NCBI GenBank assembly: GCA_013359135.1
Contig: JABWCN010000017.1
Coordinates: 1 to 64,000, forward strand
Source of the DNA: Pseudobdellovibrionaceae bacterium
GTDB lineage: Bacteria; Bdellovibrionota; Bdellovibrionia; Bdellovibrionales; Bdellovibrionaceae
Direction of reading: 5' to 3'
Length of the DNA stretch: 64,000 nucleotides
The notes beneath the pieces are model-generated. The model ran no database searches and had not been told where the DNA came from. It worked only from the letters and a program-made list of their open reading frames with translations. Below, piece by piece: positions 2,263-19,304 of the stretch. A program made the position numbers and the translations under genes. Numbering within the stretch: the first letter of the stretch is position 1; each line of letters begins with the position of its first letter.

Positions 2263-4179
2263 CTACTTTTTCTTAAACAGAACTGTAACCATGTCTTTTA
2301 AATCCATAGTGAAAATACTATCATTTTTTTTATTTTTTTTCATCATCATTTCTACTAAGCTCAATTCTCTTCTCGCCGAAATGAAGGTTGTATCCATAGC
2401 AAGAGCTTTATCAAAAGATTTTTTTGAATTTAACAGATCATTTTTAGCTTTAAAGTAAAGCCCCATAACGTAAGGGTAAAGTGCATCATATCTTTCATCA
2501 GGAGAAATCTGCATTAAATCCATTTCTACTTCTTTTAAAGTCTCTTTATTTTTCTTAGGTAAAGCGGTACCTAATTTAGCCCAAGCTAAATAGATATTAA
2601 ATTGAAAAATATTGGTATTTAATTTAGCAGCTTCCTTCAACTTTTCAAGCGCAGGTTGATATAAATTCATCAACAACTCTTTCCTGGCTTCATCAACTAA
2701 TTGAGTTGCTTTCACCTTATTCGCAGCTTCATCCTCTTCAGCTTCTTTTTCCATTTTCTGTTTAGCTTCAGTACTTAATGTCTGAATTGCTTTTTCAATA
2801 ATTAACCTTGCATCTTCCCATACTTTTATTAATTTTGGATTCTCACTTGTTGGTCTAGGACCAATTATGTTTACGATCTCAGCTTTGGCAGATTCTTTGT
2901 TGTTAAACTTTGCAAGACCATAGGTCTGTAATATCTCAAAAGCAGTCATTGTTTTAATTTGCGCTAAAACTCCATTAATAAAATCCAAATTTTCATTCTC
3001 ATTAACAAAATGAATTTCTTTAGAGAAACAGATCAACCCTTTAGTATGCAAAAAGTGTAGTGCTTTGTAGAGTGCCGTTTGGTTGTAATCTGGCACTTTA
3101 AGAAGAGTATTTAATGATGTTTTATTATTAAGTCGCCCTGGAAACCCTGATAGGCTTTTAATTAAACTCATTTTCATTGCAGGATGATCTAATTTAAAAC
3201 TTGGCGTTGGAATAATTAAATGCCCCATCCACATGGCATACAAATTTTTTAACCAAGAAATAGGAATTTTAGACGCTATCCAATCATGCATATACAAAAG
3301 TAACTGTTCAGAATCAATTGATGGCTGAGTAAGCTCAACTTCGCTTGAAGCAAAGTTTATCTTCACTTTTTTGTCAGAAATTGTTTTAGCAAGTCTGACG
3401 TTCATTTGCTCCATCATTGTCATTTCAAGTGCATGTGGACTCATTAGGTTTGAAGATATCAACCTTTGCCCCAAACGCTGATTATTTTTGGACTGCAAAG
3501 CTTTTTGAATATCATCTGTAGAAACAAAACCACTCTGAATAAGCATTTCACCAATGTAAGTTGTCTTGTCTTCAATATCCACCCCAAGAATACATCCATT
3601 TGAAAATGTAATCCCAGATACATTTGTCTCGTTAAAGTAGATATTTAAATACCCAGAACTTTTAGTTTCAGCGAGAAGGCTGTAGATAAAAGGTAGATCA
3701 TATCCAGAAATTTCATCAACGGAATCAATAATTTTACGTTTTTCTCTTGTCGTAAGATTCTCTTTAGAAAAAATGTGATACAACGACTTTAGTGGATTCT
3801 CTTTAGGCTCAACAGCTGACTTCACTAAACTTAGAACTTGCTCTAAATCAAAAGGCTTTTTTAAAAAAGCCGTGGCCTGAGTCTTTTTTAATAAATCTTG
3901 AATAGTCGACTTATCAGTATAAATTCCTGACATCAAAATGACTTTAAATTTTTTATCTGGCTGATCTCGTTTGACTTTAATAACAAACTCATCACCAGAC
4001 ATTCCTGGTAAAAGACAATCAACAAATAAATACTCTATAGGCTGTGAATTTAAAACCTGATTAGCTTCTTCAGTACCAGCTGTTGCTAAAGCGTTGATGC
4101 CTTTTTTTTCAAAAGCATCTAGCATTGACTTTCTAAGAGATTGATCATCTTCGATGATTAAGACTTTAGCATTTTCCAC
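2263..4179 (-). CDS. response regulator with DUF4388/MshEN-like middle and TPR-like C-terminus
   Basis: This is a 638-residue cytoplasmic signalling protein. Residues 5-120 are a receiver domain with the acidic pair Asp11/Asp12, phospho-acceptor Asp54 in VDCLLPGMSG, Ser84 and Lys108 in KKPF. Residues about 170-260 resemble DUF4388 (PATAN). They contain two 24-residue stretches (208-231 and 235-258, the second RLGQRLISSNLMSPHALE) that resemble the MshEN motif, which binds cyclic di-GMP in other proteins. The last 150 residues are helical with TPR-like spacing. There is no DNA-binding or enzymatic output domain. The start appears to be GTG. It lies 92 bases downstream of the STAS gene on the same strand, so co-transcription with the SpoIIE-STAS pair is likely. 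Confidence 0.75.
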   Translation of the reverse strand: MENAKVLIIEDDQSLRKSMLDAFEKKGINALATAGTEEANQVLNSQPIEYLFVDCLLPGMSGDEFVIKVKRDQPDKKFKVILMSGIYTDKSTIQDLLKKTQATAFLKKPFDLEQVLSLVKSAVEPKENPLKSLYHIFSKENLTTREKRKIIDSVDEISGYDLPFIYSLLAETKSSGYLNIYFNETNVSGITFSNGCILGVDIEDKTTYIGEMLIQSGFVSTDDIQKALQSKNNQRLGQRLISSNLMSPHALEMTMMEQMNVRLAKTISDKKVKINFASSEVELTQPSIDSEQLLLYMHDWIASKIPISWLKNLYAMWMGHLIIPTPSFKLDHPAMKMSLIKSLSGFPGRLNNKTSLNTLLKVPDYNQTALYKALHFLHTKGLICFSKEIHFVNENENLDFINGVLAQIKTMTAFEILQTYGLAKFNNKESAKAEIVNIIGPRPTSENPKLIKVWEDARLIIEKAIQTLSTEAKQKMEKEAEEDEAANKVKATQLVDEARKELLMNLYQPALEKLKEAAKLNTNIFQFNIYLAWAKLGTALPKKNKETLKEVEMDLMQISPDERYDALYPYVMGLYFKAKNDLLNSKKSFDKALAMDTTFISARRELSLVEMMMKKNKKNDSIFTMDLKDMVTVLFKKK

Positions 4180-4271
4180 AATTCATCTATCGGAACAAAT
4201 GAAAAAATATTTAGCTAATAGCTAATTATCCCAAGGGACTAGACCAAAAACCAGTTTCCAAATCAAACGTA

Positions 4272-4742
4272 TTATTTTTTTATAAACTTAAAGTACTTAG
4301 ATTCGATTACATCCATCTCCATCTCTGCTCCTGAGTCATCAGTAACTTTAGCTGGGGAATTTAATCCATTTTGGGAATACTCATGTCCTAAACGGAAAAG
4401 GATGTTTTTTTCTGTTCCGTTTTCCTCATTATAATAAGGAACAAAAAAAGAGGAAACAATTGCATTTGTTGGTAAAAAGCCGTCAACCATATTAATTTGA
4501 TCGACTATAATTTTAGGGCAATTTACAAAATTAATTTGAGAGTTTTTACTTGAGCTTAACCACTTAATCCATTCTCTAATACCACAAGAATTGATACTTT
4601 TTAAGTTCTTCAAATCTATTTCTATATTCCCTGTATCACTAAGCTTTAAAATATTAAAATCAACGTCTTCATCTATAATACCAGACATTGCAATTTTTTC
4701 TGTAGCATTAGAATTTTCTTTTTTAAACTCAAATTTAGCCAT
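4272..4742 (-). CDS. STAS-domain protein (anti-sigma antagonist-like)
   Basis: This 156-residue protein has the layout of a STAS domain. Two short strands come first, then the segment IDLKNLKSINSCGIREWIKW, in which Ser52 falls where anti-sigma factor antagonists of the SpoIIAA/RsbV type are phosphorylated. A further 50 residues follow the core. It lies 16 bases after the SpoIIE-type phosphatase gene and has an AAGGA ribosome-binding site, so the two are very likely a phosphatase-substrate pair. No anti-sigma kinase is present beside it. The sequence is divergent and the family assignment rests on layout and context. Confidence 0.65.
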   Translation of the reverse strand: MAKFEFKKENSNATEKIAMSGIIDEDVDFNILKLSDTGNIEIDLKNLKSINSCGIREWIKWLSSSKNSQINFVNCPKIIVDQINMVDGFLPTNAIVSSFFVPYYNEENGTEKNILFRLGHEYSQNGLNSPAKVTDDSGAEMEMDVIESKYFKFIKK

Positions 4743-4758
4743 AACAATCCTTTTTTAT

Positions 4759-6600
4759 TTAATAAACTTTATTTTTAACCACAAAAAAAGTCACATCATC
4801 AACCAAACTACTACCTTTTCTATATTCATTCATAATTTTAGCAAACTTTTTAATAAATTCATCAGAATTTGTCTTCATATTAAAACATTCTATGATGGTT
4901 TTAATAAACTCTCTTTCGCCCCAAGGTTGACCAGAAGGATCAACAACATCAGGAACTCCATCAGTATAAAAATAAATCAAATCATCATTTTCAAACCTAA
5001 CTGTTGTCTCTTGATACAAACTGTCTCTACTTTGCCCTAACCGAGGACTATTAACATCATTTAATGGAATTAAATCTTTCTTTTTAATTGATTTTGTTGA
5101 ATTTTTTATCAAGTATGGAGCTTCATGTGAAGCATTAGCGTATGTAAAATCACTTGTTATCGTATCATAACAACCAATAAAAAAAGTCATCATTAAACGG
5201 CCTCTAGAAACTTCATATATGCAGTGATTTAAATATTCTAGAGCCTTAGCAGGACCTACATTAAGGGATTCAATAATTACAGCTGCTGACTTGGCAGCGC
5301 TAGTTATCAATGCAGAGGGCGCTCCATGCCCAGTAGCATCTCCAATCCAAAAAAATAACTTTGTTCCAACCTGACAATAATGCCACCAATCTCCACCACA
5401 TTCACTAGCTGGTTCATAAAATCCAGAAATTTCAATATTATCATATTTTTTTCTAGCCTCTGGAAACAGTGTCTCTTGAACTGTTTTTGCTGTTTGCAAC
5501 TCATTTTCCATTCTAGCTTTCTCTGCAGTTTGTTTTAGTAAACGCAAAATTTCCTCTGACATTCGATTGAAATTGTCAGCAAGCACTCCAACTTCATCGG
5601 ATGACTTGATCTGAACTTTGGTAGTGAAGTCTCCTTCACTCACCTTCTGAGTTGCAGTAAAGAGTAATGTAATAGCATTCGTTATACTTGATGAGGCAAA
5701 TAAAGAAATTATTGTTGTTACCGCAATTAATATTACAAAAAAGATAATAGATTTTTTTAATAAAATATCAAGAGCTGACAAAGCTCTGCTCTTTAATACA
5801 GAAGATATTACTGTCAATCCTCCTATACCCACTTGTGCATAGGAAATAATAAATTCTTTTTTGTCAGCAGCACTGGCTATTTCAACCCCATTCAATGAAC
5901 TGATTCTATTTTTTTCTATAAATTTAACATCAACTAAAGTTTTAAAGTTTTTATTGATCACATCTGTCGAACCTAACCTAATTTTAGCAGATTTATCTAC
6001 CAAAAATAATTTTTGAGCTCCAGAATTCTGAAATACGTCTTGTAATTCTCCCAACTGAAAGACAATCACAAAAAATAAAGACTTATTATTCTTTAAGTCT
6101 TTAGGGGGAACCTTCTCTATCATTAGAAAATGGGAGTCAGAACCAAAGCTATAAACTGTTCTTTCGTTATCTTTTACATAGTATATTTCTTGAGATAGTA
6201 TTGTTTCAATTTTATCTTTATTTTGATTAAAAATATCATTATTCTTCTGTAGATACTGAATAAGTTTATATCTTTTACTATCTAAATCAACTTCGTAAGC
6301 TAACAAAAGTTCAGTGTTAGATTCACTTTTAAAATATTCTGAAGCAAACGGGTCAAAAGAATTTTTTGTTAAAAAATCTTGAAATATAAATTTATTAGAA
6401 GACATTATTGAGGTCAGTTGAGTTTTTATTTGAGTTGCAATGGTCTGTGTCAAGTTTCCACTTGAATCGAAAACGTATGCAATTTTGTCAGTTTCAAAAA
6501 TTTTCATTGCCAATATTAAATAAGCAGAAAGTGTGATCAAAGGAATAAGAGTTAATAAAACTAGAATTTTATATCTTAATGAAAATTTGTTTTTTTGCAC
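4759..6600 (-). CDS. membrane-anchored HAMP-SpoIIE (PP2C-type) serine phosphatase
   Basis: The 613-residue protein has a membrane helix at residues 9-31, a sensor region of about 250 residues facing the periplasm, and a second helix near 280-305. A HAMP linker follows (about 305-358), then a short coiled coil (EKARMENELQTAKTVQETLFP) and a SpoIIE/PP2C catalytic domain from about 380. Metal-binding motifs are intact: CGGDWWHY, GDATGHGAPSA and YTDGVPDV. Enzymes of this kind remove phosphate from STAS-domain proteins, and the next gene encodes one. The start is GTG with no clear ribosome-binding site. A TATAAT box lies about 40 bases upstream. The sensor region resembles no family I can name. Confidence 0.85.
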   Translation of the reverse strand: MQKNKFSLRYKILVLLTLIPLITLSAYLILAMKIFETDKIAYVFDSSGNLTQTIATQIKTQLTSIMSSNKFIFQDFLTKNSFDPFASEYFKSESNTELLLAYEVDLDSKRYKLIQYLQKNNDIFNQNKDKIETILSQEIYYVKDNERTVYSFGSDSHFLMIEKVPPKDLKNNKSLFFVIVFQLGELQDVFQNSGAQKLFLVDKSAKIRLGSTDVINKNFKTLVDVKFIEKNRISSLNGVEIASAADKKEFIISYAQVGIGGLTVISSVLKSRALSALDILLKKSIIFFVILIAVTTIISLFASSSITNAITLLFTATQKVSEGDFTTKVQIKSSDEVGVLADNFNRMSEEILRLLKQTAEKARMENELQTAKTVQETLFPEARKKYDNIEISGFYEPASECGGDWWHYCQVGTKLFFWIGDATGHGAPSALITSAAKSAAVIIESLNVGPAKALEYLNHCIYEVSRGRLMMTFFIGCYDTITSDFTYANASHEAPYLIKNSTKSIKKKDLIPLNDVNSPRLGQSRDSLYQETTVRFENDDLIYFYTDGVPDVVDPSGQPWGEREFIKTIIECFNMKTNSDEFIKKFAKIMNEYRKGSSLVDDVTFFVVKNKVY

Positions 6601-6639
6601 AATTTAATTCTAAAGAGAATTTAAAGTTTTGATAAGCAG

Positions 6640-6645
6640 ATTATA
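6640..6645 (-). promoter_or_regulatory. candidate -10 element for the SpoIIE-STAS operon
   Basis: On the minus strand this reads TATAAT, a perfect -10 hexamer, about 40 bases before the GTG of the phosphatase gene. No good -35 hexamer is visible at standard spacing, so this rests on the -10 alone. The rest of the 171-base divergent gap to the FecR-type gene holds nothing else I can identify. Confidence 0.35.
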
Positions 6646-6771
6646 TTCTATCTTCTCAAGGTCCAGTCTTCTTCCTTGGCCCAGCAAAAGAATGAAGCTC
6701 TAATAAAATAAGAACTACTATTTCTAGACTTAAGTTGTAGCTATTTTTCACAAAGACAACCGAGAGAGTTA

Positions 6772-8937
6772 ATGGCTATGGTAAAATTTAACAAGACAGA
6801 CCGAGTGATACTCTCGGTTGCTATTATAATCTTAATCGTTTACTCATACTTTTTGTATGACGATACTTTTCTATTTAGTATAGACTCTAGCAACGAAAAG
6901 CAGATAGGTTCGCTATCAATGTCTTCTAATGATGTTCGAAAAAAAACGCTTGAAAGTTTTCAGTGGATACCTGCAAAAAGTAATCAATCACTTAATGAAA
7001 AAGATAGTATCTTTACTGGTGAAAAATCTAGCGCCGTCATCAAATTAAATGATGGATCGTTGATAAAATTGGGTGAAAATTCTTTGATTTCACTCACAAC
7101 AAGATCTGGCAATGTAGAATTAAATTTAAAATATGGAGAAATTCAAACTGAAATCAAAGCAAGCACAAAAGTTCAATTAAAAACTGAAGGCGAGAATTTA
7201 GTATTAGAAAACAATAAAAAAAATATCTCTAAAGTCAAAATCAAAAAATCAAAATTATCTTCTGCCAAACTTGACTTACTTGAAGGATCTGTCAGTCTTA
7301 GTTCAAAGACGAGCAATCAAAAACTGGCACTTAAAAAAAATGAAACTCTTGACGTTGCAAGTACCAAACTATCCTTTCCTCCAGCCTTAACTCAATTACA
7401 AGGTAAGATAGATCTCATAACACCTGAGCAGATGAAAATTGTTTTGATCAATCCTAAACAAGGATTTTTTCTTAATTGGAGTGGTAAAAACACAACTAAT
7501 GAAAAACTTGTTATTGCTAAGGACAAAGAATTCCAAAATGAAATTCTAACTAAAACGAATATCCCACCTAAAATTTTTATTAACGAACTAAGTGATGGTA
7601 TTTTCTATTGGAAAGTAGTTGGAAAAGATGTTAAAAACTCAGACATTACTTCTAGCATACAGACTTTTGATATCAAGACCTTAAAAAAACCAGAAATTGT
7701 TTCACCTCTTAATAATAGTAGTATACAGCTTTTAACAAAAACTGACGTCAAAACTCACAAAGGTGAAGTGGTTTACAACTGGGAAAGTGACTTTGCTCTT
7801 TTTGAATATCAACTATCAAATGACGACATTTTTAATAAAATAATAGATACAAAAAAAATAACTGAAAAAAAACTCTCTCTGGCTTTACCACAGGGTCAGT
7901 ACTATTTTAAAATTCGAGGCTTATATAACAACCAATACTCAGAATGGAGCACTGTCAACAAAATCAACATTTTGACAACTAAAATAAAAGAGTTACCTCC
8001 TTTAGCTCCCACTTTAATAACTAAGAATCTTAGTAGCACAATCAAAATTTCCCCCAGACAACCAAGTTCAATTTCACCTGTATTAATCAGATGGAATAAA
8101 GTGAACAAAGCAAGCAAATATATTGTCGAGTTATCGCAAGATAGTCAGTTCACAAAAACTCAAAATTATGAGACAACAAACAACGCTTTGTCATTTACCC
8201 CAACAGATACGCCTCTTTATTTTATCAGAGTCAAAGCTCAGTCACCAGAGGGTCTGCAAAGTAATTACAGCGACGTAGGGAATATTAAGACAGAACTTCC
8301 TAATCCAATTTTAGAGTTAAACGAGTCTCTTATTGTAAAATCGGGAGGAATCGGCGAAAAAGCCCCTTCTGTTAAATTTGAACTCAATTGGAATCAACTT
8401 CCCTTTGTAAATACTTACTTTGTCGAACAATCAACAACCTCTGACTTTAAAAATGTAACAAGTACTAAGACAGGACAAAACAAATCAACTATTGAGGTTA
8501 ATAAACCCGGAATTTTTCACTTTAGAGTCATTGCATCTATTGATTCCACTTCTTTGAAAGCCAATCTAATTTCTAACATTAAAACAGCTACCTACGACTT
8601 CAAGCAAAAACTTAAGAGTCCTGACCTACTAGAACCAAGAAACAAACTCACTGTTTTTTTACAAAAGGATGTCGAGCCCTTTATTTGGACCAACTGGGAA
8701 AAAGAAAAACTTGCTGTTAATTATTCAATACAAATTTCTGATAGCCCAGACTTCTCTAAACCTTTACTAGAAAAAACAATGACAGATAACAAGTTTTTAC
8801 TTAAAGAAAAGCTGCCTCTCGGGAACATATATTGGCGTGTAAAAGCCAACGCCAAAGATCCAGCTATGAGCTCTTCTTGGTCAAAACCTAGTGAATTCAT
8901 TCTTAATCATAACAAAAACAACGAGGCTTTCCAATGA
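6772..8937 (+). CDS. FecR-domain exported protein with repeated beta-sandwich (FnIII-like) modules
   Basis: This is a 721-residue protein with an N-terminal signal anchor (residues 11-29), so most of it lies in the periplasm. Residues about 60-200 fit a FecR domain: SAVIKLNDGSLIKLGENSLISL and a following KYGEIQTEI strand. The rest consists of repeated modules, each with a Trp-bearing strand, a phrase like VELSQDSQFTK or IQISDSPDFSK, and a closing YFRV/YWRV strand, as in bacterial fibronectin III-type repeats. Its stop codon overlaps the start of the CheA-like kinase gene (ATGA), which suggests that the two are made together and act together. FecR domains usually relay envelope signals to sigma factors, but none is encoded here. 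GAGAG precedes the ATG. Confidence 0.75.
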   Translation: MAMVKFNKTDRVILSVAIIILIVYSYFLYDDTFLFSIDSSNEKQIGSLSMSSNDVRKKTLESFQWIPAKSNQSLNEKDSIFTGEKSSAVIKLNDGSLIKLGENSLISLTTRSGNVELNLKYGEIQTEIKASTKVQLKTEGENLVLENNKKNISKVKIKKSKLSSAKLDLLEGSVSLSSKTSNQKLALKKNETLDVASTKLSFPPALTQLQGKIDLITPEQMKIVLINPKQGFFLNWSGKNTTNEKLVIAKDKEFQNEILTKTNIPPKIFINELSDGIFYWKVVGKDVKNSDITSSIQTFDIKTLKKPEIVSPLNNSSIQLLTKTDVKTHKGEVVYNWESDFALFEYQLSNDDIFNKIIDTKKITEKKLSLALPQGQYYFKIRGLYNNQYSEWSTVNKINILTTKIKELPPLAPTLITKNLSSTIKISPRQPSSISPVLIRWNKVNKASKYIVELSQDSQFTKTQNYETTNNALSFTPTDTPLYFIRVKAQSPEGLQSNYSDVGNIKTELPNPILELNESLIVKSGGIGEKAPSVKFELNWNQLPFVNTYFVEQSTTSDFKNVTSTKTGQNKSTIEVNKPGIFHFRVIASIDSTSLKANLISNIKTATYDFKQKLKSPDLLEPRNKLTVFLQKDVEPFIWTNWEKEKLAVNYSIQISDSPDFSKPLLEKTMTDNKFLLKEKLPLGNIYWRVKANAKDPAMSSSWSKPSEFILNHNKNNEAFQ

Positions 8938-10895
8938 TAACTCATATTTTCGATAGTCTCTTAGAACCAGTCTTTATTATTGACCAAACAAGTAAAGTTA
9001 TTTACTGCAATGAAGCTGCAAGCTTATTAACAGACAAGAATCAAAGACAACTCATGAGAAGTAAACCTACTCTTTCTTCTCTATTTAGATTTAATAAACC
9101 TATAAGTTATTTAGAACAATTATCAACAATTAAAGATCCAACTCCCTATAAGGAGTTTTTATTTTCTAGCGCCTCAATAAATGATGGTAAAGCTCAAATG
9201 ACAATTCAACCCTATTCTGAATCTGCATGGTTGATTTACTTTAGAGATGTCACCCTTGAGGAAAGACTACAAAGAAAGTACAGAGCTGAGTTAGGACAAA
9301 AAGAATCTGTAATTGAAGATTTGAAAATAGCACGTCTGGAACTTGAGAAGTATTCTAAGAATCTTGAGCGTTTAGTTGATGAACGAACTAACGAATTAAA
9401 ATCTCTAAATACCACAATGAAAGCACTTCTAGATAGTTTGAACCAAGCTTTTTTTGTTTTCAACAGTCAAGGTGATTGTTTACCCATTTTCTCCAATGCT
9501 TGTTTGGACATTATTGAGTCTTCTCCTGTCGGAAAAAAAATATGGGAGGTATTGAATATAGAGCCCGCACAAATTTCTGGATTTAAAAATTGGATGCATA
9601 CTGTATTTATGGAAATGCTTCCTTTTGAGGACCTTGCAGTTCTAGGACCGAACAAAAGAAAGCATTCTCAAGGAAAGACCATCGCTGTTGAATATTTTCC
9701 TATAAGAAATGCAGAAAATACAATCCAAAATATTGTTTGTATGGCAAGTGATATAACAGCTCTAGTTGAAGCTAAGAAAAACTTTGAATACGAAAAGTCA
9801 AAAGTAGAATCAATTTTAAAAATGGTTGCGAATAGAGATCAACTAAAAATGTTTTTTAGCGAAAGTACTCTTAGTCTTTCAAAACTAGAATCTTACCTTT
9901 CTTTAGAAAACTTTTTTCCAAATTTCGAAGACATTTATCGTGTTATTCATACGCTTAAAGGCGGCGCTTCCACTTTTTCCTATATAGACTTGAAAAATCA
10001 ATGTCACCAATTTGAAAGCCTACTGAATTTAATAACTAATGATTTTAAACAAAATATAGCTGAAAATATAAGCCAAAATGAGAAAAAAAATATCGAAGCA
10101 AGTGATCTTTCTATTTTGAAAGAACTAAATAAAAAACTAAAGAAATCTCTTCAAAAAGAAATTTATGACTTTGAAAAAATGTTTCGAACAAAAGTTGATT
10201 TACAAGGCAATAAAATAATCGAAGTTGGATCTACTGATTTTCACATTCTACTTAATAGTTTAAAGAATGAAAAAATTAAAAATTGGGCTATTGATAAGTA
10301 TCTCTTCTATCCCATCTCAGCTTATGTAGGTCACTTTGAAAACTTACTCCTGCACACCTCAACTTTTTTACAGAAACCGATGCCTAACTTGAAAGTAATT
10401 GGTGACCATCTTAAAATTCCTAGTAACAAGTTTAATTCGTTATTTCAAAATTTGAACCATCTTCTAAGAAACTCACTCGATCATGGAATAGAATTACCAC
10501 ATATTAGAGAAAAAAATAAAAAACCAATAAAAGGTAATTTAACTATTACTTTTTCAATTACCGAGGCCTTTAGCTCTAATAATTTAATCATTGTCTTTGA
10601 AGATGATGGACAGGGCATCGACTTGGATACGTTAAAAGCTAAACTCATCGAGAAAAAAGTTAATATTGAAAATTTGACTGACTCTGAAGTTATGTTGAAA
10701 ATTTTTGATCCGCAAGTCAGCACTAAAAATGAAGTCACAGAAATAAGCGGTCAAGGTGTAGGACTCAATGCTGTTCACGAGGAAGTAAAAAAACTGGGAG
10801 GAAAACTAAAGGTTGAATCCAGTAGGAACTGCTTTACACGCTTCACCATGGAACTTCCATTTGATCGCTTAGAAGCTTTAAAGAATGCTTCCTGA
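8934..10895 (+). CDS. cytosolic PAS-PAS-HPt-HATPase histidine kinase, CheA-like
   Basis: The 653-residue protein has no membrane helix. Two PAS-like domains (residues about 5-105 and 165-280) are joined by a coiled coil (about 108-165). An HPt domain follows with His339 in IHTLKGGAS, the phospho-accepting motif of CheA. The C-terminal ATPase is of CheA type: HLLRNSLDHGIE (N box), FEDDGQGID (G1) and SGQGVGLNAVHEEVKKLGG (G2). It ends there, so the CheW-like P5 domain and the P2 domain of true CheA are missing, and a chemoreceptor array role is unlikely. Its start overlaps the stop of the FecR-type gene, and a CheY-like gene lies 17 bases away, convergent. Confidence 0.85.
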   Translation: MITHIFDSLLEPVFIIDQTSKVIYCNEAASLLTDKNQRQLMRSKPTLSSLFRFNKPISYLEQLSTIKDPTPYKEFLFSSASINDGKAQMTIQPYSESAWLIYFRDVTLEERLQRKYRAELGQKESVIEDLKIARLELEKYSKNLERLVDERTNELKSLNTTMKALLDSLNQAFFVFNSQGDCLPIFSNACLDIIESSPVGKKIWEVLNIEPAQISGFKNWMHTVFMEMLPFEDLAVLGPNKRKHSQGKTIAVEYFPIRNAENTIQNIVCMASDITALVEAKKNFEYEKSKVESILKMVANRDQLKMFFSESTLSLSKLESYLSLENFFPNFEDIYRVIHTLKGGASTFSYIDLKNQCHQFESLLNLITNDFKQNIAENISQNEKKNIEASDLSILKELNKKLKKSLQKEIYDFEKMFRTKVDLQGNKIIEVGSTDFHILLNSLKNEKIKNWAIDKYLFYPISAYVGHFENLLLHTSTFLQKPMPNLKVIGDHLKIPSNKFNSLFQNLNHLLRNSLDHGIELPHIREKNKKPIKGNLTITFSITEAFSSNNLIIVFEDDGQGIDLDTLKAKLIEKKVNIENLTDSEVMLKIFDPQVSTKNEVTEISGQGVGLNAVHEEVKKLGGKLKVESSRNCFTRFTMELPFDRLEALKNAS

Positions 10896-10912
10896 TTCTT
10901 TTCATTAAAGAG

Positions 10913-11320
10913 TTAACTTTTAAAATGCTTAGAATAGGCAGTCTTTAGTTTATCCTCAAATACTTTTCCTGAAAATGGTTTAACAATATATTGTGACACT
11001 CCTGCCAAAACAGCTTCAGTGACTTGTTCGCGCTCAGCTTCGGAAGTCAAAAGAATAAAAGGGAGTTTAGAAAACCTTTCATCTGCTCTAACTATTTTTA
11101 AAAGCTCGAGCCCCTTCATCTTTGGCATATTCCAATCAGAAATGACAAGCTCAATAGGTTGTGCTTCACCATACTTAACTTTAATAAGATTCAACCCTTC
11201 TTCGCCATCTTCAGCTTCATAAATTTCCATAAATCCCATGGCTTTAAGCTGGTTTCTGACTAAATCCCTAATAGATGGCATATCATCGATAATAAGAATT
11301 TTCGTATTAATAGAAAACAT
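10913..11320 (-). CDS. CheY-like single-domain response regulator
   Basis: A 135-residue receiver domain with nothing attached. All active-site residues are present: Asp12 and Asp13, phospho-acceptor Asp62 (VISDWNMPKMKG), Thr92 and Lys114 (IVKPF). An AAAGGAG ribosome-binding site precedes the ATG. It is convergent with the CheA-like kinase gene, 17 bases apart. That kinase is the obvious partner, though the two need not be co-transcribed. With no output domain it would act by protein contact or as a phosphate relay or sink. It need not have anything to do with the flagellar motor. Confidence 0.92.
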   Translation of the reverse strand: MFSINTKILIIDDMPSIRDLVRNQLKAMGFMEIYEAEDGEEGLNLIKVKYGEAQPIELVISDWNMPKMKGLELLKIVRADERFSKLPFILLTSEAEREQVTEAVLAGVSQYIVKPFSGKVFEDKLKTAYSKHFKS

Positions 11321-14761: not shown

Positions 14762-17700
14762 CTATTGGCATTTATTGTCGGATTGGACAGCGGACTTTGG
14801 TGTTGAAGCAACAAGATCCGCAATTAACCCAAGAATTTTAGCCACTTTAGATCGGTTAGCGGATAAATCATAGTTAGATTTTTTATAATTGTTTTTCCAA
14901 TCTAACCAATTTCTAATATCTTGTTCAAAAACGCATAAGATTGTTAGAGGTTTATCACAAGCAGGTATCGCTCCATACTTTAGAATATAAGTGAATAAAG
15001 CCTCTAGATCAGCTTCATTTATATCTCCATTATCAATTTGAGGTTTTGCTACTTTCCTTAATAGACTTGCAAAGGCCGGAAATGCTTTTATACCTTCTAC
15101 CTTATTAATAATCCCATCGTAATTCTCATCAAACTTCAGAAAAATAGTCTCTTCATATTGCAAAATATGTGGATAAAGCGATAAATCTCCCATTGGAACT
15201 TTATTATCTACCCTGGGAACATAACCTGTTGCTTTTAAATTATTTAAGAAAGCTTCATTCCATTTATTTACATCCTCTTTAGCTACATAGTTCTTATAGC
15301 TTGGCATAGAATTAAAAACCAAATCAGAAGGCTCATCTGCTAACTCATAATAAACTTTTCGTATACAATCCAAATCCATCAATTTTAAATTACCTTCATT
15401 AATCACTTTACAGTTTTTGTTCAACTCAACACTGATTTGATCACCCAGAATTAAAGCTGAAAAGATATAATCCGCAAGCTCCGATACCTCTTCAAAACTA
15501 GCGAAATCGTTGCCATCTGCATGTGGCAGAAAAAGATTTGCCTCTAAAAATCGAGACTCAATAAATCCATCACCACTTGTCGGAGAAATAATATCCATAT
15601 CTATTAATAACGGCTTTATGTCGTGAAATAACTCTTTAAGCTCACATTCTGTAATTTGTTTAAGATAACTTACCTTCTGATTTTGTTTGGAATAAGATCT
15701 TATTATAATACTTGCTAAGAAACGGGTTAAATTCATTTGCAAAACAGCTGTTTGTCCAAAATAAGGGTTAGAGTTTTTAACAAAAATCAACTTTTTATCT
15801 TTACCCATAGTTAGAGGATATGGCGTTTGAAAATGTCTGAGAAACTCACTCAATCCATACTTTAAACTCAAATCCGATGTTGCTTTCAAAGTATTTGAAA
15901 TGTTCACATTAAAAAAATTATAATTGTATGTATAGTTTAATTTATTTTCATAAAGCTCATAAAAATAAAGCTGAGTATTCATAAAGTTTAAATACTCTCT
16001 TTTTAAAACTTCAATATGAGCTAGTTCAAATCCTAAAACTTTTCGTTTCGAAGTAGCTCCATTAACAACTAGAATTTTTTCAAGCAAAGACTTTAGAATT
16101 AACTTCAGAGAACTGACTTTTAACTCTTTAGGCAAAATCTGAACTTTAACCAATTCATTGATTAAACCATCAATTTCAGTATAAGAAATCATTTTAGATT
16201 TTCGTTGATTTAAAATATTATAAACATAATTAATTACATCTATAAATAAGTTTCGATTTTGAATTTGCTGATCATACTTACTATGAAAAATAGTCTGCTT
16301 TTTTATAAAATAGTGATATTTCATATAATATGAAAACACTTCACCAAACCTTGTTAACAGCTGTGAAAACTCTAACTTGTCAAATTTTAGATTTTCACAC
16401 TTAAATCCTAGATTATAATTATTTTTATTTAGTAAGACATCTGTACCTATTTGAATAAGACAAGCATAGTTTTTTACATCCCCAGCTACGTCATCCATAT
16501 CAGCAGCTTGAGGGTATAGTTTATTAACCTCTTCAAATAAATTAAAAAAATCTTTAAGAGAATAGCCACTTTCAAGTTGAACTTCTGTATTGATTTTACT
16601 AATAACAGTTTTTAACTTATCTCTTCCTTTTTCAAATTTATCTAGAGCCTCACTTTCTGATAATAACTCAGGTCTCCAATTCAAACCAAAAAAATCATAA
16701 TACGGAAGAAACTCCTCAACAACACTTCTTACTGCCTGCACTTTACTTTGAGCTTTTAAAAACTCAGCTTGTCCAATTCCTTCTGTGTTTCCACCAACGA
16801 AAAGCATTTTAATTTTCATAAGCTCTGTTGTGAGCTCTGGAGAAACTTTAAAATCTTTCCAAATTTTTGAAAAACTATTCAATATATCATAAATTTCATC
16901 TTTACTAATCTGATGTGACTCTTTGAAACTAAGAAGTTCATAAAAAATTAAGAACGACTCTTCTATAGTTCTAGCATAATATGCTAATTTTAAACTAGTG
17001 TATTCTGGATTCGTGTTTTGAATAAAGTAATAATAACGTAAATATTGAACATATCCTTTAGCTCCAAGTCTTAAAAACAACTCCCACTCATTTCCTAATA
17101 AGGAGTTCTCATTGCCACCAGTTATTGATTTTTTTAATTTTTTAACAAGAGGTAAAAACTCTTCAAACTTTCCTAGCCAGCTCCATGTAGAATCAGAAAC
17201 AGCTGCTAATTCACTTAAAAACTCATACACATCGTCAAAAAAATACTCATTATCATTTTTATAAATAAGACTACTAAATCTATTTATGATTTTAATAAAA
17301 TTGATGTTAGCACTTTCAAAGTCTTGAAGTGTTAAATCACCAGACTTAAGTTGAGATTCCCAATTCAGAGTGAGTACTTTCATTGAGGGATTTAAATCTT
17401 TGAAAATTCCCTTTAGGTTTTCCATCAAGCCAATAAGTAAATCCATTTCTTGAGGGGTAATATACTCTAAATTTCCACCCAAAAATAATTTTTTAACCTT
17501 CATTAACTGCTTCTGTAAATTTAAACTTATCGCCTTCTGTTTAACATTACTTGTTTTGTTTTCATCAAAAAAATTATCTTCAACAAATCTAGCTAATTCA
17601 CCAGGAGAACATTGCTCTTTGAGTTTACATCGAACGTTTGCTTTGAAGCTTTTTACCATAGAGGAAAAACAATCCCATGCAGTCCCTATTTCTTCTGTTG

Positions 17701-17869
17701 CGGCATTACCTCTAAAAAAAGCTCCAAAAGAGTCTGTTGATTTTATTAAACAAGAATCTGGTTTATACTCAGGTATTTTAACTTCAGGAGGAGCTTCACC
17801 AATTTTCAAATTACAAGATGTACTGAAGAAAATTACAAAAAGTAACAAGAGTTTTAACTTAGAATACAT
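14762..17869 (-). CDS. large lipoprotein with EF-hand loops and internal repeats, function unknown
   Basis: This 1035-residue protein starts at the ATG preceded by GGAGGTG, six bases away. Its signal peptide ends in the lipobox FSTSC, so it is lipidated. Residues 914-925 (DENYDGIINKVE) are a canonical EF-hand calcium loop. Residues 783-794 (HADGNDFASFEE) and about 763-774 (SGDGFIE) look like weaker ones. A segment is repeated about 228 residues apart: LMKVKKLFLGGN from 122 and LMKIKMLFVGGN from 350, each followed some 40 residues later by LNW. The remainder is helical and Leu-rich. I do not recognise a named family. It overlaps the end of the upstream barrel gene by 11 bases, so the two are probably co-expressed envelope partners. 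Confidence 0.7.
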   Translation of the reverse strand: MYSKLKLLLLFVIFFSTSCNLKIGEAPPEVKIPEYKPDSCLIKSTDSFGAFFRGNAATEEIGTAWDCFSSMVKSFKANVRCKLKEQCSPGELARFVEDNFFDENKTSNVKQKAISLNLQKQLMKVKKLFLGGNLEYITPQEMDLLIGLMENLKGIFKDLNPSMKVLTLNWESQLKSGDLTLQDFESANINFIKIINRFSSLIYKNDNEYFFDDVYEFLSELAAVSDSTWSWLGKFEEFLPLVKKLKKSITGGNENSLLGNEWELFLRLGAKGYVQYLRYYYFIQNTNPEYTSLKLAYYARTIEESFLIFYELLSFKESHQISKDEIYDILNSFSKIWKDFKVSPELTTELMKIKMLFVGGNTEGIGQAEFLKAQSKVQAVRSVVEEFLPYYDFFGLNWRPELLSESEALDKFEKGRDKLKTVISKINTEVQLESGYSLKDFFNLFEEVNKLYPQAADMDDVAGDVKNYACLIQIGTDVLLNKNNYNLGFKCENLKFDKLEFSQLLTRFGEVFSYYMKYHYFIKKQTIFHSKYDQQIQNRNLFIDVINYVYNILNQRKSKMISYTEIDGLINELVKVQILPKELKVSSLKLILKSLLEKILVVNGATSKRKVLGFELAHIEVLKREYLNFMNTQLYFYELYENKLNYTYNYNFFNVNISNTLKATSDLSLKYGLSEFLRHFQTPYPLTMGKDKKLIFVKNSNPYFGQTAVLQMNLTRFLASIIIRSYSKQNQKVSYLKQITECELKELFHDIKPLLIDMDIISPTSGDGFIESRFLEANLFLPHADGNDFASFEEVSELADYIFSALILGDQISVELNKNCKVINEGNLKLMDLDCIRKVYYELADEPSDLVFNSMPSYKNYVAKEDVNKWNEAFLNNLKATGYVPRVDNKVPMGDLSLYPHILQYEETIFLKFDENYDGIINKVEGIKAFPAFASLLRKVAKPQIDNGDINEADLEALFTYILKYGAIPACDKPLTILCVFEQDIRNWLDWKNNYKKSNYDLSANRSKVAKILGLIADLVASTPKSAVQSDNKCQ

Positions 17870-19304
17870 AGTTAACACCTCCGTACACCCTATCATTAGC
17901 TCTATACTGATTTAAAAATTTTGAAGAATTATTCTCAACATCAACTGAAATAAAATCTCCCCCAATAAGTACAGCCCAGTTTTTAACTGGAAAATACTGT
18001 AATTCTGTGTTTAATAATGATCCCATTTGATCAAAATCACGCAGATAAGAAACTTTGGTCAGAATTGATTTTCTGAATAATGAAAAAATATGTCCCTGAA
18101 ATTTAAATAGAACGGCATTATAAAACTTCAACCTTTCATCAAATAGAGTGAATGAGTCCTTATTACCAGCTGAGTCCACATCATAAATATCTCCACCGTA
18201 GACTTTTATATAACCTAATTGAGTTTTTAGATTTTTTATAATTTCTGATTCAAAGTCTTTTTCTGCCATTAATGAATATACTTTTACAGGGTTAAGGCGC
18301 TGAATGACCCAACCCTCTTCAGGATTCTTGTCTTTAGGACTATCTTCAAGATAACTGATCAAAAACCGTCTGCCTTTACCAACGAAACCCATATCAACTG
18401 AATAAATTGAATGGTACGTCACATCTGGTGAAACACTCACGTTAACTACTTTTTCACTCGCCTCAGCAAATCCCTGACGTTTAAGAATTAAATCGTTAAC
18501 TGGTTTATAACCAACACTTTGATTAATCCAAAATCCAGACTCCTCACTACCTACACCGACATTTAAACCAGCCCCAGGTTTTGAAACTAAATTTCTAATT
18601 TCAGGTACATTCAATGTGTATGTGAGTGACTTAATTCTTCCATTAAAATCATACTTGTCCGATGGTTGGCGAAACCATCGGCTATCTGAAACTAAAGCAC
18701 CACTCTCTTCTCTTACGTCAACACCCATATTTGGTATAAAAACTGGAGTTGTGAACGTCACAAAATGAAACTCTGGTTTGTGATACTCAAAAAATGCTCC
18801 GAATAATCCTTGTTCTTCGGGCCTTAGATAATCTATGGCATAATTTGGCTGCCAAAAACTAGTCTTCCAATAAGAATCCAAAGTACTCCAATCAAATTTT
18901 TTTCTGCCTCCATAGAACTTGAAGTCGTTGTCTAACTGGTAATAACCATAAATTTCCTGAACTGAGTAGTTTGATGTACCGAAGTTAAACTTTCCAGCCT
19001 GTAAATCCATTCCAAAACCATAGAGTTTTTGAGCTTGGTGTGTAATCACTCCAAGACGAGTTGAAAAGTACTGTTGACGATTTAGATTTTCACTCTCTGG
19101 AAGCTTACGAATATAGTCCATAGATTCAAAACGAAAAACTCCAAAAAAGTGATTTGTATCCGTTTCTTTAGCAATAGAATCTAAATTTAAAAACTGTGAA
19201 GAATAGATAGACGATGAAGCTTGTAAAGCACATAGTAAAATCACCCATAAGGCTTTTCTAAAACTCTCTTTTAAAATTCGACTCATTACTAAAAATTCTC
19301 TCAT
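17859..19304 (-). CDS. outer-membrane beta-barrel-like protein, function unknown
   Basis: This 481-residue exported protein has a hydrophobic N-terminal signal (ALWVILLCALQASS) and alternating aromatic strands throughout. It ends in VYGGVNYVF, the terminal Phe typical of barrels inserted by the BAM complex. No known porin or transporter motif is evident. The first ATG has no clear ribosome-binding site. An in-frame ATG at 19286 (protein starting MSRILKESF) suits the candidate promoter better, because the predicted transcript start falls only about eight bases before the first one. Its last codons overlap the start of the EF-hand lipoprotein gene. Confidence 0.7.
   Translation of the reverse strand: MREFLVMSRILKESFRKALWVILLCALQASSSIYSSQFLNLDSIAKETDTNHFFGVFRFESMDYIRKLPESENLNRQQYFSTRLGVITHQAQKLYGFGMDLQAGKFNFGTSNYSVQEIYGYYQLDNDFKFYGGRKKFDWSTLDSYWKTSFWQPNYAIDYLRPEEQGLFGAFFEYHKPEFHFVTFTTPVFIPNMGVDVREESGALVSDSRWFRQPSDKYDFNGRIKSLTYTLNVPEIRNLVSKPGAGLNVGVGSEESGFWINQSVGYKPVNDLILKRQGFAEASEKVVNVSVSPDVTYHSIYSVDMGFVGKGRRFLISYLEDSPKDKNPEEGWVIQRLNPVKVYSLMAEKDFESEIIKNLKTQLGYIKVYGGDIYDVDSAGNKDSFTLFDERLKFYNAVLFKFQGHIFSLFRKSILTKVSYLRDFDQMGSLLNTELQYFPVKNWAVLIGGDFISVDVENNSSKFLNQYRANDRVYGGVNYVF

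Follow-up and report, generated by a model that had tools for sequence, protein, structure and literature searches.

The locus studied here raises the question of whether six genes representing different styles of signalling, encoding a FecR-domain protein, a CheA-like kinase, a CheY-like receiver, a SpoIIE-type phosphatase, a STAS protein and a receiver-DUF4388 protein (RR-DUF4388), serve one pathway and, if so, which component acts upon which. The genes are located within a 64,000-nucleotide stretch of DNA (the window) from a Pseudobdellovibrionaceae bacterium of the phylum Bdellovibrionota, which includes the best-known bacterial predators. Known targets of partner switches are sigma factors and, in a small number of cases, diguanylate cyclases. 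A search of the literature on Bdellovibrio combined with SpoIIE, STAS, partner switching, anti-sigma antagonist or FecR found nothing on the cluster. ORF and domain scans confirmed all six gene calls of the first-pass annotation (Table 1), as well as the reported ATGA overlap of the FecR and kinase genes (positions 8934–8937).

Table 1. Features of the gene cluster, with coordinates in the window.
Feature	Coordinates	Strand	Basis
RR-DUF4388, receiver + DUF4388 (PATAN-like) response regulator, 638 aa, GTG start, Asp54	2263–4179	-	Pfam Response_reg 1.6e-15, DUF4388 8.6e-7
STAS switch protein, 156 aa, putative phospho-Ser52 in INSCGIREW	4272–4742	-	invariant residues and AF2 fold
Membrane SpoIIE-type (PP2C) phosphatase, 613 aa: TM, periplasmic dCache-like, TM, HAMP, SpoIIE	4759–6600	-	Pfam SpoIIE 2.4e-30, HAMP 1.3e-9
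Divergent SpoIIE/FecR intergenic region	6601–6771		gene arrangement
FecR-domain protein, 721 aa, N-terminally anchored, probably periplasmic, Fn3/Ig-like repeats	6772–8937	+	Pfam FecR 2.9e-7 (31 bits)
CheA-like kinase, 653 aa: PAS1 + signalling helix (1–165), PAS2, Hpt (His339), CheA P4-type ATPase	8934–10895	+	Pfam, NCBIfam, PDB
CheY-like single-domain receiver, 135 aa, Asp62	10913–11320	-	Pfam 7.3e-24, NCBIfam CheY 2.3e-35

The TM segments of the SpoIIE phosphatase (residues 12–30 and 284–302) flank a weak dCache match, which lies below the Pfam cut-off, and its motifs GGDWW, GDATGHG, YTDG and DDVTF are conserved. The FecR protein contains a single N-terminal TM segment (residues 12–30), preceded by 11 residues. 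The kinase is related to CheA (NCBIfam CheA_Halo, 1e-42; CheA P4 structures in the PDB, E ~1e-23) and ends after P4. The reported lack of a CheW domain and of a membrane anchor was confirmed by the Pfam and TM scans. The histidine named earlier, His339, was also correct: it is invariant in 21 orthologues, as are the ATP-site residues. No FecI-like sigma factor was recognised by Pfam and NCBIfam among the seven cluster-region proteins scanned, and a promoter scan of the SpoIIE/FecR intergenic region gave nothing above shuffled sequences. Residues ~209–258 of RR-DUF4388 (window 3406–3555, minus strand) resemble an MshE-like c-di-GMP-binding motif, but the score of 34.7 bits falls short of the NCBIfam cut-off of 38 and the motif is not claimed.

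Comparative analysis revealed that the order and orientation of the set (RR-DUF4388, STAS and SpoIIE, then FecR and kinase, then CheY) are retained in most genera of the family, at identities to the window proteins of ~35–48% (kinase), 25–44% (FecR), 54–66% (STAS) and 51–77% (CheY). The cheY-like gene adjoins the kinase gene in nearly all genera and RR-DUF4388 lies beside STAS in most. The named relatives that sequence searches recovered belong to Bdellovibrionaceae. Such conservation across genera places the cluster far beyond chance. In other Bdellovibrionales families seven genes may form one array (L187, L190 and L219), with FecR divergent from SpoIIE-X-STAS-kinase-CheY-RR, where X is an additional gene described below and RR-DUF4388 is the last gene of the array. 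Some loci of these families contain X-STAS-kinase-CheY-RR without adjoining SpoIIE or FecR, and several of the genomes concerned carry a FecR-SpoIIE pair elsewhere. The synteny and the arrays therefore indicate that the genes travel as one pathway composed of two separable halves, FecR-SpoIIE and X-STAS-kinase-CheY-RR, which supports the earlier proposal of a single module. Scattered occurrence, the outcome that the first-pass annotation had set against this proposal, was not found for the whole set, although the FecR–kinase pair does separate. Near the cluster (window 14762–17896), a gene for a 1044-aa protein without a Pfam match is likewise kept across the family (27–47% identity).

It had been noted that no anti-sigma kinase accompanies SpoIIE and STAS. 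This is true of the window locus but not of relatives, many of which encode X (~245–318 aa) between the two; neither the window's genus nor Bdellovibrio has this gene at the locus. Scans of X members gave no Pfam or NCBIfam match, and their alignments retain residues of the N-box (E..xNA) and G-box (GxGxG). The AF2 model of X, which is confident (pLDDT 88), has SpoIIAB as its best fold match (Foldseek 5e-6; VIA Z 12.7 over 129 residues at 2.2 Å), followed by RsbW (Z 11.1) and SiaB (Z 9.9), as compared with Z ≤6.6 for histidine kinases, the exception being the Leptospira regulator LvrC (10.8). As modelled, X has the SpoIIAB/RsbW fold. It is fused to STAS in L246 (2991–4376) and L286, and to SpoIIE in L274, L277, L280 and L287. 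Three genes of 365–380 aa upstream of X in other families, considered as split phosphatases, were read from their sequences as dioxygenase-like and RibD-like metabolic genes.

No RsbW-type HATPase_c_2 domain (PF13581) was matched above the cut-off in the window genome. This genome does contain an unlinked gene, X2 (L142:5277–6710; G000:C3, minus strand), located beside lspA/lgt-like genes and encoding a cNMP-binding domain (Pfam cNMP 8e-12), a receiver-like domain and a SpoIIAB-like domain related to X. X2 occurs in almost every genome of the family, those of the window's genus and of Bdellovibrio included, with a mean column identity of ~60% across six genomes, and is possibly a cyclic-nucleotide-controlled serine kinase. 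It was considered as a simple replacement of X, but since X and X2 co-occur in several genomes it is put forward as a candidate STAS kinase of the window lineage, nothing more.

The STAS protein itself gave no Pfam match. Residues I50, N51, S52, G54, I55, R56 and W58 are invariant, and the structures closest to the model (AF2 pLDDT 91) are those of anti-sigma antagonists (Foldseek 4hyl, 5e-4, VIA Z 12.3; RsbV, Z 12.1), whose fold the model shares. The C-terminal extension of STAS in the X-STAS fusion of L246 bears CxxC pairs, which suggests that the corresponding extension of the window protein is a degenerate zinc ribbon. A PP2C-type phosphatase and a serine-bearing antagonist are encoded at the window locus, and a SpoIIAB-like kinase at the corresponding locus in many relatives; the cluster is very probably a partner-switching module based on serine phosphorylation.

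A probable output of this switch is indicated by the N-terminal part of the kinase, in which PAS1 and the signalling helix are better conserved than the ATPase domain of the same protein. A profile of this part (A8, kinase residues 1–165) was searched in 212 genomes of the phylum, yielding 114 matches in 89 of them. Among the STAS matches listed, a STAS gene lies within 7 kb of 86 of the 114 and within 0.8 kb of 48 (chance ~0.7%, phylogeny uncorrected). The domain that follows PAS1-helix varies: it is a CheA-type kinase in Bdellovibrionales, HisKA-HATPase-REC in L274, L277, L280 and L287 (a family including a Bacteriovorax record), and GGDEF in L278, L279, L281, L283, L268, L113 and L114. In two kinase-less genomes (G045 and G054) the sole genome-wide match is a PAS-GGDEF protein at the STAS locus, and in L282 (4879–6336) STAS, PAS1 and GGDEF are fused in one protein, which has lost the phospho-site motif and is encoded beside an intact SpoIIE-X-STAS set. 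Kinases away from STAS or FecR are few (L092, L095, L097, L102 and G039). From these sequence comparisons, PAS1 plus the signalling helix is the STAS-linked element of the kinase, and it is fairly probable that STAS controls the kinase through it. A partner switch with a CheA-like histidine kinase as its output is likewise the reading that we favour overall, with reasonable though not strong confidence.

The arrangement could also represent a classical switch, in which X or X2 would act as an anti-sigma-like kinase and STAS would release the protein bound to it, be it a sigma factor or some other, the histidine kinase being merely co-regulated. The modelled SpoIIAB/RsbW fold of X is consistent with this, as is the distribution of STAS, which was found in 149/212 genomes of the phylum as compared with 89/212 for PAS1-helix; most members of genus g18 have STAS without PAS1-helix. 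With STAS so often present in genomes that lack a PAS1-helix match, other targets of STAS must exist. However, a classical switch leaves unexplained the recurrent adjacency to PAS1-helix, the swapping of outputs and the STAS-PAS1-GGDEF fusion, and no sigma factor gene was recognised on inspection of the loci. We consider it unlikely as the main role of the module.

Still less probable is the reverse order, in which the kinase would act first and the partner switch would follow it, like in the HptB-HsbR-HsbA system of Pseudomonas. Two-component control of PP2C/STAS switches does have precedent, one report describing it for RsfSR-SigF of M. smegmatis (PMC10950880). The SpoIIE protein of the window, however, lacks a receiver domain and is built as a membrane sensor, the obvious targets of the kinase are CheY and RR-DUF4388, and the STAS locus persists where GGDEF replaces the kinase.

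The remaining component, FecR, had been proposed as the sensor subunit of the kinase, with the two genes expected to be always adjacent. Neither proposal was borne out. Among 69 distinct FecR genes, 61 adjoin SpoIIE, and the kinase gene is also adjacent in 36 of these 61 and absent in 25, whereas none of the 69 adjoins a kinase gene without SpoIIE (the counts include related genomes and are uncorrected for phylogeny). FecR-SpoIIE-STAS loci, with or without X, exist in genomes that lack the kinase, and the divergent orientation of FecR and SpoIIE is retained in nearly all loci containing the pair. Elsewhere in the window genome, the genes for a FecR paralogue and a HAMP-SpoIIE protein share a 4-base overlap (L109:6616–10484, C36), and another FecR protein is encoded in a three-gene run with a dCache-HAMP adenylate cyclase, one gene apart (L108:4059–9566, C70).

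FecR therefore probably belongs to SpoIIE and not to the kinase. With only 11 residues ahead of its TM segment, FecR would be poor at contacting a soluble kinase. Since a membrane sensor with a periplasmic region is common to the FecR loci, a periplasmic contact between FecR and the sensor, here SpoIIE, would be the simplest reading of the gene arrangements, and FecR proteins may pair with membrane sensors generally in Bdellovibrionota. An extracytoplasmic FecR sensor signalling through the kinase to CheY and RR-DUF4388, with SpoIIE-STAS as a neighbour having its own target, would fit the ATGA overlap and the adjacency seen in most genera of the family, but it is the least probable arrangement considered, given the skewed neighbour counts, the short segment before the TM and the arrays of other families, in which the kinase lies with STAS and FecR is divergent from SpoIIE.

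In the favoured scheme of a switch with the histidine kinase as output, SpoIIE, responding to a presumed signal and probably aided by periplasmic FecR via the dCache-like domain, would dephosphorylate STAS at Ser52. A SpoIIAB/RsbW-type kinase would phosphorylate it, X doing so in many relatives and probably X2 or another kinase in the window genome. STAS in one of its phospho-states (the unphosphorylated one, if SiaC is a guide) would engage PAS1 and the signalling helix and thereby set autophosphorylation of the kinase at His339, from which phosphate would pass to CheY and RR-DUF4388.

The closest parallel for such an output is SiaABCD of Pseudomonas aeruginosa, composed of PP2C SiaA, kinase SiaB, the STAS-fold SiaC and diguanylate cyclase SiaD. 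SiaC binds the stalk helices of SiaD, and its phosphorylation by SiaB blocks binding (PMC8457831). Relatives with X share with this system a membrane HAMP-PP2C phosphatase, a GHKL-type kinase and a STAS-fold switch at one locus, the output of SiaABCD and the output proposed here both being a signalling enzyme rather than a sigma factor, and the models of X and STAS resemble SiaB (with the Z score given above) and SiaC (Z 8.1–8.2), respectively. Unlike in SiaABCD, a CheA-like histidine kinase is the usual output, PAS1 plus helix is the module proposed as target, FecR is added, and STAS carries a Ser motif as well as a C-terminal extension; in fold, X is closer to SpoIIAB/RsbW and STAS to RsbV-type antagonists. 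The window STAS locus contains the kinase and no diguanylate cyclase, PAS1-GGDEF being found in some relatives.

The SpoIIE-type PP2C, the SpoIIAB-fold kinase and a STAS protein with a Ser motif also recall SpoIIE-SpoIIAB-SpoIIAA and RsbU-RsbW-RsbV, and the SpoIIE-X fusions are comparable to the phosphatase-kinase Rv1364c. In contrast to these switches, X, which is missing at the window locus, has ~100 extra N-terminal residues, and the arrays contain a histidine kinase or cyclase with no recognised sigma factor at the loci. The kinase shares Hpt (P1), the P4 ATPase and an adjacent CheY with CheA, but differs in its two N-terminal PAS domains and in the absence of a CheW/P5 domain, of a recognised P3 and of adjoining receptor genes. 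As in FecR sigma regulators, the FecR domain is carried by an N-terminally anchored, probably periplasmic protein; here, however, no FecI-type sigma factor or TonB receptor was recognised in the cluster, a large Fn3/Ig-like tail is present, and the genomic partner is a SpoIIE phosphatase or, at a paralogous locus, a dCache-HAMP cyclase.

Extended to the whole of Bdellovibrionota, the chances appear about even that STAS directly gates a PAS-helix module whose output domain can be exchanged (CheA-type kinase, HisKA hybrid kinase or diguanylate cyclase), so that serine phosphorylation feeds a histidine phosphorelay, with FecR-Fn3 as a periplasmic co-receptor of the phosphatase. If true, the setting of a histidine kinase by STAS via a portable PAS-helix would link two chemistries of phosphorylation and supply a sequence-based rule by which targets of STAS could be predicted. 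The module is conserved across the phylum and represents a genetically testable, apparently undescribed regulatory hub.

Two further genes of the window genome are related to this module. One (L288:6529–7002, C42) encodes another STAS protein of this family, and no gene for SpoIIE, X or a PAS1-helix protein was recognised next to it. The other encodes a GGEEF diguanylate cyclase with the PAS1-helix input of the kinase and lies apart from the STAS locus, beside clpA/clpS-like genes (L265:7260–8591; G000:C4, plus strand). The presence of both in one genome makes cross-talk possible.
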